Shown in pieces: positions 20,412 through 23,723 of a stretch of DNA of 44,083 bases. Numbering within the stretch: the first letter of the stretch is position 1; every line of letters begins with the position of its first letter. Origin of the DNA: Sedimentisphaerales bacterium (GTDB lineage Bacteria; Planctomycetota; Phycisphaerae; Sedimentisphaerales; UBA12454); contig JAFGGI010000049.1 of NCBI GenBank assembly GCA_016930635.1, positions 1 to 44,083 on the forward strand, given 5' to 3'. The notes below the pieces were generated by a model. It saw only the letters and a program-made list of their open reading frames with translations. It made no database searches and had not been told where the DNA came from. The position numbers and the translations under genes are program-made.

Positions 20412-20460
20412 TGTAAATCTAATGAATTATTAGCCTTTTATCTTCCATTTTTTCCTCGCT

Positions 20461-20609
20461 AAATACTATATACTAAATACCAAATACCAGATACCTTAAC
20501 AATCATAAAAATTTATGCCATAGGTATCTGCGATTCTGATAACCGATAACTGAATACTGATAACTGTATGATAACTGATAACCGAGTTCTGATAACTGTC
20601 AACTGAATT
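20461..20609. repeat. Low-complexity spacer tract (AATACC and GATAACTG words)
   Basis: 20461-20496 repeats AATAC/TATAC words (ACTAAATACCAAATACC). 20534-20609 repeats CTGATAACCG, CTGATAACTG and variants at irregular 8-15 base spacing. Units are too degenerate and too close for a CRISPR array. No ORF fits. Confidence 0.6.
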
Positions 20610-20621
20610 GTTAAGTTCTGC

Positions 20622-20650
20622 TTGACTTATGCCGAAATAACTGGTATAAG
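20622..20650 (+). promoter_or_regulatory. Promoter P1 of the ileS leader
   Basis: TTGACT (20622-20627), a 17-base spacer and TATAAG (20645-20650) with an extended TGG just before it. The expected start of transcription, 20656-20658, falls on the ATG of the leader ORF, so the leader would be translated from a leaderless or nearly leaderless message. Confidence 0.65.
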
Positions 20651-20657
20651 GATACTA

Positions 20658-20753
20658 ATGACTAATGTTTCGAGACAATTCGTTCCAGGCCTTTCAAAAG
20701 CCATCACTGGCATTGCTATTATTATCGCTATTATCATAGGTGGTCCCGGCTGA
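20658..20753 (+). CDS. Isoleucine-rich leader peptide of ileS
   Basis: A 31-codon ORF that begins MTNVSRQFVPGLSK and continues AITGIAIIIAIIIGGPG before TGA. Isoleucine fills positions 16, 19, 21-23 and 25-27: eight of twelve codons, using ATT, ATC and ATA. AAGGA lies five bases before the ATG, but it overlaps the P1 -10 box and may not be transcribed from P1. The ORF overlaps pairing segment 1 (20690-20702), and its stop codon opens segment 2. The peptide most likely serves only as a ribosome-stalling sensor of charged tRNA-Ile. Confidence 0.8.
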   Translation: MTNVSRQFVPGLSKAITGIAIIIAIIIGGPG

Positions 20754-20813
20754 AAGGTTCTTTAAAACGATGATTTAAAAGCCTTTCAGGACAAAACCTT
20801 GAAAGGCTTTTTT
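20688..20813 (+). promoter_or_regulatory. Ribosome-mediated transcription attenuator of ileS
   Basis: Four segments alternate between two complementary sequences. Segment 1 is CCTTTCA (20690-20696, helped by GCC 20700-20702). Segment 2 is CTGAAAGG (20750-20757). Segment 3 is GCCTTTCAG (20781-20789). Segment 4 is TGAAAGGC (20800-20807). Pairing 2:3 gives an eight-pair antiterminator; 3:4 gives the terminator; 1:2 permits termination when the leader is untranslated. A ribosome held at the Ile codons leaves segment 2 free for 3; one reaching TGA at 20751 masks segment 2 so 3:4 forms. This matches the classical trp/his/ilv logic. Confidence 0.82.
20777..20813 (+). terminator. Attenuator terminator upstream of ileS
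   Basis: AAAAGCCTTTCAGG pairs with CCTTGAAAGGCTTTT (up to 14 pairs with one wobble, short A-rich loop) and ends in six T residues at 20808-20813. It lies 67 bases before ileS and between the leader ORF and the gene. Confidence 0.9.
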
Positions 20814-20824
20814 GTTATAACTGC

Positions 20825-20853
20825 TTGACAGATAAAGAAGTTAAAATTATGAT
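20825..20853 (+). promoter_or_regulatory. Promoter P2 of ileS, downstream of the attenuator
   Basis: A perfect TTGACA (20825-20830) and TATGAT (20848-20853) are separated by the optimal 17 bases. Transcription would start near 20860, leaving a 20-base leader with AGGA before the ileS ATG. It would bypass the attenuator. Confidence 0.6.
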
Positions 20854-20879
20854 GTTTGGTTTAATTTATTAGGAATTTT

Positions 20880-23723
20880 ATGACTAACGAAAAAAAGAAC
20901 TATCGACCGACGCTTAATTTGCCCAGTACCAGCTTTGGCATGAAGGCTAATTTAACTCAGCGTGAGCCTGCCCAGCGCAAGGCCTGGGACAAGATGGCCA
21001 TTTATGAAAAGATAATGGATGCCAGAGTCGATTCGCCTCAATATACCCTTCACGATGGCCCGCCCTACGCCAATGGCGACATCCACATGGGTCACGTCAT
21101 CAACAAGGTCTTAAAAGATATAGTCGTCAAATACAAAACGATGTCAGGCTTCAAGGCTCCATACGTACCAGGCTGGGACTGCCATGGCCTGCCCATCGAG
21201 GCCAAGGTCTTTGCCGAGCTGGGCGAAAAGGCCAAGACTTTAAGCAAGCTCGAGATCCGCAAGCTCTGCCAGAAGTATGCAAGCAAATATGTCAAGCTTC
21301 AGACAAAGCAGTTCAAGGACCTGGGCGTCTTTGGCGATTTCAAAAATCCGTATTTGACACTCAAGCCTCAGTACGAGGCCGGCATTTGTGAAGTCTTTGC
21401 CGAGCTCGTGGAAAAGGGACTTGTTTATAAGCAGTTAAAACCGATTCATTGGTCAGTTGGCTGTCAGACGGCCCTGGCCGATGCTGAACTTGAATATGAA
21501 GATGTAACTTCGCCGAGTATTTTTGTTAATTTCCCTGCCGATGAGGATTCTGCTAAAAAGTTGAAATCACTCGGGTTAGTTGAAGATGATGATAGCAGTG
21601 TATGTTTTATGATATGGACGACAACGCCGTGGACGCTGGCTGCCAATTTAGCTGTAGCTGCTCATCCGGACCTGGAATATAAAGCCGTAAGTTATTCACA
21701 AAATGGTCAAAAATTTACCTCTATTATTGCCCAGGCAAGACTGGAGGCTGTTGTCGCTGCCGGAAAGCTCGAGGGCCATACGGTTAGTGCCAAGAGCGTC
21801 AAGGGCAAGGACCTTGTGGGCCTGAGGTATAGGCATCCATATATTGAGAATAATCCTACGGACAAGGATGCCTGGGTGGTTATCGGTGCCAATTTCGTAA
21901 CGACTGAGGATGGCACGGGTTTGGTCCATACTGCCCCCGGCCATGGTCTTGAGGACTATATAGCCGGCCAGCAGAATAACCTGGCTGTTTATTCCCCTGT
22001 CAAGGACGATGGCTGTTATGATGACACTGTTCCGGACTGGCTTTGTGGTAAAAATGTCCTGGAGGTAGATAAGGAAGTTAATGGATTCTTAAGCGATAAG
22101 GGTTTACTTTTCGCCGAGGGCGAAATCACCCACAGTTACCCCCACTGCTGGCGAAGCCGAATGCCCGTCATCTTCCGTGCTACCGAGCAATGGCATATTT
22201 CGGTAGATAAGCCGATGGAAAAAGGGAAGAGTTTGAGGGAGCTGGCGATTGAGCGAGTACCTGAGGTTAAGTGGATACCAGCCTGGGGTGAAAAAAGAAT
22301 TTCAGGGATGCTTGAATCAAGGCCCGACTGGTGTATATCAAGACAGCGATGCTGGGGTATGCCGATACCAGTATTCTACAATTCGCAGGGACAGACGCTT
22401 TTGACAAAAGAATCCGTATTGGCTGTCGCTGAACATATGAGACAAAAAGGCTCGGATAGCTGGTTTATCGATTCGCCAAAAGAAATACTCGGTAAAGACT
22501 TTAAACTGCCGGAAGGATTCAGCTTTGACGACCTGCAAAAGGAAGAGAATATCTTCGATGTCTGGTTCGAGTCCGGTTGCTCGTGGTACAGTGTGGCAAA
22601 ACAGGCGGGCTGGGCAATACCAGTCGACCTATACCTGGAAGGCTCAGACCAGCATCGCGGCTGGTTCCAGCTTTCACTGCTACCGGCCTTAGGCGCTATC
22701 GGAAGTGAACCTTTCAAAACCGTACTTACTCACGGATTCACCGTTGATGAGGAAGGCAGGAAACAATCCAAATCGCTCGGCAATTACGTCAATGCCCAGG
22801 ATGAAGTTAATAAATACGGCTCAGATATTTTGAGGCTGTGGGTTGCAAGTGTTAATTACCAGGAAGATATGCGGTGCAGTGATGCGCTTATCGGCAGACT
22901 GCAGGATGCCTACAGAAAAATGAGAAATACCGTGCGTTACCTGCTGGGTAATATTTCTGATTTTGACCCTGCAAAGAATAGTGTGCCTTACGATAAGATG
23001 TTCGAGATAGACCGCTGGGCAGTTCAAAGGCTGCAAAAACTTATAAGCGAGGTAACAAATGCTTATGAGAATTTCCTGTTCCATAGAGTTTACGGGCTTA
23101 TCTATAACTTCTGCGTTGTAGAGATGAGCAGTATCTATATGGATGTACTCAAAGACAGGCTTTACTGTGACGGTAAGGATTCGGTTTCAAGGCAGAGCAG
23201 TCAGACGGCGATGTATAAAATACTCGATGCTCTGGTCAGGATGCTTGCACCAGTACTTGCACATACGGCAGAAGAGATTTACGCGGCAATGGACGCTAAG
23301 ACAGAGTCGGCAGAAAGCGTTCATTTATTAACTATGGCAAAAGTTGACAAATCGATTGACTGGAAGAAGGAAGATAGAAAATGGAGTAAACTGCTTTCGC
23401 TTCGTGATGAGGTTCTAAAGGAACTTGAAGGCCTGAGGAAAAATGAAGTAATCGCCAGTAACCAGGAGGCCTCTGTAACGATATCGACAGATGATAGTGA
23501 ATTGACGGGTCTGGTTGAGCAGTTAGGTATTGAGAACTTCGCAGCGCTTTGTATTGTAAGTGAAGTTAATCTGAAAAAGGAAAAGGGTGAGAAATTAGTC
23601 TCTGCTCAAAAAAGTGCACATCAAAAATGCCAAAGGTGCTGGAACTACTGGCCAAGCGTTGGCGAGGATGCGGAGAATACAGAGCTTTGCGGAAGATGTC
23701 GCGACGTTATTTCTAATCGCTGA
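20880..23723 (+). CDS. ileS: Isoleucyl-tRNA synthetase
   Basis: 947 residues, standard bacterial IleRS length. It charges tRNA-Ile and edits mischarged valine. The HIGH-type motif HMGH is at residues 69-72 in PPYANGDIHMGHVINK; the KMSKS-type loop is KQSKS at 628-632. The CP1 editing domain lies between them, with TTPWTLAANLAV and GLVHTAPGHGLEDY. The C-terminal zinc finger CQRCWNYWP...CGRC (about 915-942) marks the common bacterial type with a C-terminal zinc domain. AGGA five bases before ATG sets the start. Expression is probably controlled by the leader attenuator and the P2 promoter. Codon use changes from C/G-ending to T/A-ending around 21480. Confidence 0.98.
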   Translation: MTNEKKNYRPTLNLPSTSFGMKANLTQREPAQRKAWDKMAIYEKIMDARVDSPQYTLHDGPPYANGDIHMGHVINKVLKDIVVKYKTMSGFKAPYVPGWDCHGLPIEAKVFAELGEKAKTLSKLEIRKLCQKYASKYVKLQTKQFKDLGVFGDFKNPYLTLKPQYEAGICEVFAELVEKGLVYKQLKPIHWSVGCQTALADAELEYEDVTSPSIFVNFPADEDSAKKLKSLGLVEDDDSSVCFMIWTTTPWTLAANLAVAAHPDLEYKAVSYSQNGQKFTSIIAQARLEAVVAAGKLEGHTVSAKSVKGKDLVGLRYRHPYIENNPTDKDAWVVIGANFVTTEDGTGLVHTAPGHGLEDYIAGQQNNLAVYSPVKDDGCYDDTVPDWLCGKNVLEVDKEVNGFLSDKGLLFAEGEITHSYPHCWRSRMPVIFRATEQWHISVDKPMEKGKSLRELAIERVPEVKWIPAWGEKRISGMLESRPDWCISRQRCWGMPIPVFYNSQGQTLLTKESVLAVAEHMRQKGSDSWFIDSPKEILGKDFKLPEGFSFDDLQKEENIFDVWFESGCSWYSVAKQAGWAIPVDLYLEGSDQHRGWFQLSLLPALGAIGSEPFKTVLTHGFTVDEEGRKQSKSLGNYVNAQDEVNKYGSDILRLWVASVNYQEDMRCSDALIGRLQDAYRKMRNTVRYLLGNISDFDPAKNSVPYDKMFEIDRWAVQRLQKLISEVTNAYENFLFHRVYGLIYNFCVVEMSSIYMDVLKDRLYCDGKDSVSRQSSQTAMYKILDALVRMLAPVLAHTAEEIYAAMDAKTESAESVHLLTMAKVDKSIDWKKEDRKWSKLLSLRDEVLKELEGLRKNEVIASNQEASVTISTDDSELTGLVEQLGIENFAALCIVSEVNLKKEKGEKLVSAQKSAHQKCQRCWNYWPSVGEDAENTELCGRCRDVISNR

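Follow-up and report, generated by a model that had tools for sequence, protein, structure and literature searches.

An isoleucine-codon leader with the architecture of a ribosome-mediated transcription attenuator upstream of ileS in Planctomycetota

The window analyzed here, a 44,083-nt stretch of DNA from a Sedimentisphaerales bacterium, raises the question of what a short reading frame crowded with Ile codons does in front of the gene for isoleucine--tRNA ligase. This gene, ileS, lies at 20880..23723 on the plus strand, as do all the window features described below, and is recognized by the NCBIfam model TIGR00392 (E = 7.7e-278). The leader ORF (20658..20753) has 31 codons, from the ATG at 20658 to the stop TGA at 20751-20753, and encodes the peptide MTNVSRQFVPGLSKAITGIAIIIAIIIGGPG before the stop. 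Eight Ile codons (4 ATT, 3 ATC and 1 ATA) occupy codons 16, 19, 21, 22, 23, 25, 26 and 27 (20703..20738), the last of them at -5 from the stop; the original prediction, made from the letters of this DNA, had described the ORF and its Ile run correctly, base for base. When 20413-20879 was resampled 3,000 times with first-order (dinucleotide) statistics, the maximum for any short ORF was 7 Ile in 12 codons, compared with the 8 observed.

Four alternating segments accompany this ORF, and their cores are located exactly where the prediction requires: CCTTTCA at 20690-20696, TGAAAGG at 20751-20757, CCTTTCA at 20782-20788 and TGAAAGG at 20800-20806. Segment 1 (20688..20702) is able to pair with segment 2 (20743..20766), which includes the leader stop codon, the TGA opening its core, while segment 3 (20774..20792) pairs either with segment 2 to give an antiterminator or with segment 4 to give a terminator. 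The 3:4 hairpin forms an intrinsic terminator (20777..20813), the stem of which (20777-20788/20800-20811) is complementary at 12 of 12 positions and leads into the expected six T's (T20808-T20813). Because segment 3 is common to both structures, antiterminator and terminator are mutually exclusive, so that this feature of the attenuator class is present. The 1:2 pairing reaches -15.7 kcal/mol in the window alone, a value equalled by 26 of 200 shuffles.

A search for IleRS gave 80 loci, nearly all in Phycisphaerae and many labelled Sedimentisphaerales. In a first pass, Ile-rich leaders were seen at about 28 of 82 ileS upstream regions, with NIAIIIIIAEKLKLP directly before the stop as their commonest ending, and a covariance model (R1) built from 30 of the Ile-rich leaders found the module at 45 of 83 ileS loci. 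Matches at E <= 0.01 occurred in 57 of 397 genomes of the class and in 89 of 161 genomes of the order. The class-wide search confined the strong, ileS-type matches to the order, with ileS beside the match in 29 of the 30 best loci and GNAT genes appearing after the thirtieth. These loci yielded 64 distinct leaders of the Ile type, almost all of them preceding ileS; their order is probably Sedimentisphaerales. The distribution is patchy, since only 2 of the 13 genomes of the window's own family, its own genome included, carry the Ile leader, and the element is missing from most of the nearest relatives, whose ileS is 79-83% identical. The window's own genome has the ileS copy of the module only; three other weak places turned out to be ordinary terminators behind other genes.

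The Ile run is conserved column by column in the 64 leaders. In the five columns from -12 to -8 relative to the stop, Ile fills 247 of 320 cells (41, 52, 47, 55 and 52 of the 64 leaders, respectively), and the third codon position is free, with ATT, ATC and ATA all used. The last Ile codon falls at -8 or -9 in 55 of 64 leaders, the stop codon lying within segment 2. Over 11 codons, Ile makes up 320 of 704 residues, while Leu (15), Val (23) and Phe (2) together account for less than 6%. As far as aligned sequences can tell, this codon usage fits a selection for Ile codons, not for hydrophobicity or RNA sequence. Four leaders (L027, L089, L092 and L194) retain the RNA but keep only 2-3 Ile codons near the stop, and the signal that they sense may differ.

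Both hairpins are conserved as well. In the 64-sequence alignment, 96.5% of the terminator cells are paired, and 9 of 13 pairs show double changes (59 double changes versus 18.6 in shuffles); for the 2:3 antiterminator the paired share is 87.1%, and 7 of 14 pairs show double changes (27 versus 13.9; slid controls were 33-45% paired). For each structure, the paired cells and the covariation score were higher than in all 500 shuffles and far above the slid controls. The terminator structure, not the antiterminator, guided the fitting of these 64 rows, and the first, unfitted alignment agrees with the result for both. Segment 1 behaves differently from one leader to another: where at least 55 nt precede the Ile run it is favored, with a mean z of -0.9 and p<=0.05 reached in 10 of 41 leaders; it is strong in L025, L027, L057 and L097, and it was not found in short leaders, which rules it out as a constant feature and makes it optional in the family. 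Hence, of the three pairings originally proposed, 2:3 and 3:4 hold across the relatives, while 1:2 does not stand as a constant element. The check proposed at the outset, whether related genomes conserve the Ile run and the alternative pairings, is thus answered in the affirmative by 64 distinct leaders.

Taken alone, the window might suggest a coincidence, namely an A/T-rich intergenic region with a fortuitous Ile run and the ordinary terminator of an upstream transcript; the base composition does favor ATT, ATC and ATA codons, and the 1:2 pairing is not significant there. However, conservation in 64 distinct sequences refutes chance, as does the fact that 0 of the 3,000 resamplings reached the observed Ile count, so that we give this explanation practically no weight.

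By comparison among relatives, then, the Ile coding constraint, the mutually exclusive pairings, the spacing between run and stop, the association with ileS and the conserved second promoter described below are shown at the level of sequence, and the element very probably attenuates ileS transcription by the ribosome-mediated, peptide-leader route. From this architecture we infer that the leader is translated, that ribosomes stall on it, that transcription ends prematurely and that the system responds to isoleucine. RNA polymerase starting at the upstream promoter P1 would transcribe the short ORF, which a ribosome would translate at once. With plentiful charged tRNA-Ile, the ribosome would pass the Ile codons, reach the stop inside segment 2 and cover this segment, allowing 3:4 to pair and transcription to end at the T run. 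With scarce charged tRNA-Ile, it would stall in the Ile run and leave segment 2 exposed to pair with the emerging segment 3, and the polymerase would continue into ileS. In longer leaders, including that of the window, segment 1 could occupy segment 2 if the leader is untranslated; short leaders lack segment 1, and therefore untranslated short leaders should default to read-through. If this reading is true, shortage of charged tRNA-Ile should raise ileS transcription.

A masking model, in which the downstream edge of the ribosome lies ~12 nt past the A-site codon, agrees with this sequence of steps. In the window, when the A site holds any of the Ile codons as far as 20736, 15-19 antiterminator pairs are free to form before arm 4 is made; when it holds the stop, none are, so only the terminator can form. 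Over the 64 leaders, the mean 2:3 energy is -15.1 kcal/mol with segment 2 exposed versus -2.3 kcal/mol with segment 2 masked. The minimum-energy fold of the complete RNA favors the terminator at every ribosome position; with the terminator thus preferred at equilibrium, antitermination must be kinetic, as in known cases.

The leader is preceded by promoter P1 (20622..20650; TTGACT-17-TATAAG with a TGG extended -10), whose spacer contains a conserved GCCGA box (20631..20635) that recurs in P1 of 31 relatives. Just 5' of P1, 20551-20609 holds imperfect repeats of TGATAACTG, probably a simple repeat expansion. The P1-type motif beginning TTGACAnnnGCCGA is present in 31 of 44 ileS-type leaders, and the motif TTGACnnnnnCCGA likewise in 31 of 44, against 0.02 expected per region. 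A longer P1 pattern, searched in 159 genomes of the order, gave 11 matches, all of them 78-117 nt upstream of ileS-type R1 matches. None of 19 sibling leaders of other genes proved to have the full P1 motif ahead of it, and its restriction to ileS leaders in the 159 genomes rules out the GCCGA box as a general promoter element; the box is possibly an operator for a regulator. Because the -10 box of P1 ends 7 nt before the leader ATG, the leader mRNA in the window is probably leaderless and would probably be translated in that form.

A second promoter, P2 (20825..20853; TTGACA-17-TATGAT), lies between the terminator and ileS. It matches the consensus at 11 of 12 positions, which 0 of 200 shuffles equalled, and it is conserved at ileS loci both with and without the leader; most sister loci without the attenuator have P2 alone. 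Since P2 is downstream of the terminator, the attenuator governs only part of ileS transcription: it is an upstream add-on, and P2 bypasses the switch. The attenuation proposed for ileS is thus supported by sequence comparison, but not as a control of all ileS transcription. A housekeeping P2 would supply basal ileS mRNA, to which the attenuator would add a starvation-induced boost.

The near-perfect P2 adjoining ileS also permits a different explanation, in which P2 alone serves ileS, while transcription from P1 stops at its own terminator and yields an independent small RNA or the message for a small hydrophobic peptide of the type I toxin-like or membrane kind. The leader peptides are indeed short and hydrophobic, and the distance from terminator to ileS ranges from 58 to >2,000 nt. 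Unlike membrane helices, however, the run is specifically Ile in the residue counts given above, and this almost exclusive composition, in which Leu, Val and Phe are not interchangeable with Ile, leads us to reject a toxin or small membrane peptide. Moreover, double changes accompany the conservation of the antiterminator, which overlaps the stop codon, the leader keeps its position relative to ileS on the same strand, and in sibling modules the leader residues fit their genes, as with an aromatic leader before ADH synthase. We therefore regard an independent P1 product as improbable and retain the attenuator as our explanation.

These sibling modules are found across the order, where R1 also matches leaders before SAM methyltransferase, GNAT, ADH synthase and asd genes. 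Two aromatic-run leaders, L153 (G443:C147) with LFYFWFYFSGRSAP before its stop and L160 (G346:C1:1827903) ending in FYFGYWFWFYYEPTKP, precede the gene for 2-amino-3,7-dideoxy-D-threo-hept-6-ulosonate (ADH) synthase (NCBIfam TIGR01949), and they probably attenuate the synthesis of aromatic amino acids via the alternative shikimate entry. Leader modules also stand before asd (aspartate-semialdehyde dehydrogenase) in L166 (G212:C466) and L234 (G228:C190), the former with many Thr and Trp residues. Modules of this kind before SAM-methyltransferase or GNAT genes, families assigned by Pfam, end in KE(A/N)xP at the stop or similarly; most of those listed here (L128-L131, L133-L138, L142-L145, L147, L150-L152, L154-L158, L204-L207 and L229-L230) have the KE(A/N)xP ending, and they are without an amino acid run. 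These run-less leaders look like putative translation-stress or antibiotic-responsive attenuators. In L237, downstream of the R2 match G259:C182:11054-11137, the leader module is followed by a GNAT gene and then by an ABC-F-like gene, whose product resembles ABC-F ribosome-protection/EttA ATPases at its N-terminus, below the curated cut-offs on a partial sequence.

The same GNAT and methyltransferase families that follow the sibling leaders occur between the Ile leader and ileS in L025, L038, L045, L050, L051, L059, L062, L064, L074, L081, L089, L092 and L097, and L045 has two leaders in tandem, each before a methyltransferase. The NCBIfam model NF040702 describes an IleRS with an N-acetyltransferase domain. 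Such genes, present between Ile leader and ileS in 13 of 44 tabulated loci, would suit an element that senses translation stress in general, or inhibitors targeting the ribosome or IleRS, rather than isoleucine supply as such, and so would the run-less leaders before the same families (once with the ABC-F-like gene following) and the ileS leaders that have lost most of their Ile codons. Nevertheless, most ileS leaders keep the Ile run, which is sensible only if tRNA-Ile charging matters, and an IleRS inhibitor would act via the same stall, so that this reading overlaps the main one; as an alternative to it we hold it to be unlikely. For the ileS leaders, attenuation in response to tRNA-Ile charging remains our interpretation.

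A joint reading of the modules can be offered tentatively, as a conjecture that we believe has a lesser chance of being right. One related module, with its stop inside segment 2, might put very different genes under ribosome control across a planctomycete order: ileS through a run of Ile codons, ADH synthase through an aromatic run, and methyltransferase or GNAT genes (once with an ABC-F-like gene) through run-less peptides whose translation may stall in the presence of ribosome-targeting antibiotics. The attenuator of ileS might then couple the charging of tRNA-Ile to protection from translation inhibitors, a link drawn because GNAT and methyltransferase genes lie behind the ileS attenuator in several genomes.

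The attenuator proposed for ileS would extend ribosome-mediated attenuation to Planctomycetota and to ileS, and it would be a second solution, beside the T-box, to the same control problem. The mechanism requires that translation follow transcription closely, a point of interest given the unusual cell plan of planctomycetes. In addition, the family provides a covariance model, and its dozens of natural variants, some with segment 1 and some lacking it, bear on the minimal needs of an attenuator.

In Firmicutes, ileS is a textbook T-box target, with transcriptional T-boxes upstream of the gene. The T-box shares target gene and signal (uncharged tRNA-Ile) with the ileS element, but there the RNA itself reads the tRNA, whereas here a ribosome would do so; a T-box is ruled out at this locus, with no Rfam covariance match in the window or in the 15 relatives searched. 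In Actinobacteria, ileS is under a translational T-box (PMC1262725). The ilvBNC leader or ilvB-II motif of Corynebacterium contains a uORF rich in branched-chain amino acids (PMC10272879), and a work cited there concerns, by its title, leader peptide formation without a ribosome binding site; to the extent of that title, it resembles the near-leaderless ORF described here. The Corynebacterium leader controls biosynthesis, not a synthetase, and belongs to another phylum. The original prediction knew of no Ile-leader attenuator described for ileS in planctomycetes, and we found none in the open-access literature, nor any peptide-leader attenuator in planctomycetes or any for ileS; Lopatovskaya et al. 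2010 (Mol Biol 44:128), a comparative study of attenuation in amino acid and aminoacyl-tRNA operons cited in PMC10272879, might contain related predictions.

The element matched no Rfam family, and no known Rfam amino acid leader exceeded its gathering threshold in the window, Thr_leader (E 0.91) and His_leader (E 2.5, on the opposite strand) scoring far below theirs. The trp, his, thr, ilv and leu leaders of proteobacteria share the logic of stall, antiterminator and terminator, including a stop placed so that the terminating ribosome masks segment 2, but they control biosynthetic operons, unlike the ileS element. In the pheM-pheST system of enterobacteria, a peptide leader rich in the cognate residue, alternative hairpins and an intrinsic terminator precede an aminoacyl-tRNA synthetase operon. 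The arrangement ahead of ileS is alike in leader, hairpins and terminator, and differs in amino acid, gene and phylum, in the second promoter behind the terminator and in the optional segment 1. The sequence-level defining features of a trp/pheST-type attenuator that we tested are present, except that segment 1 is optional. In mechanism the element would thus belong with the trp, his and pheST leaders, with ileS as the new gene and Planctomycetota as the new phylum.
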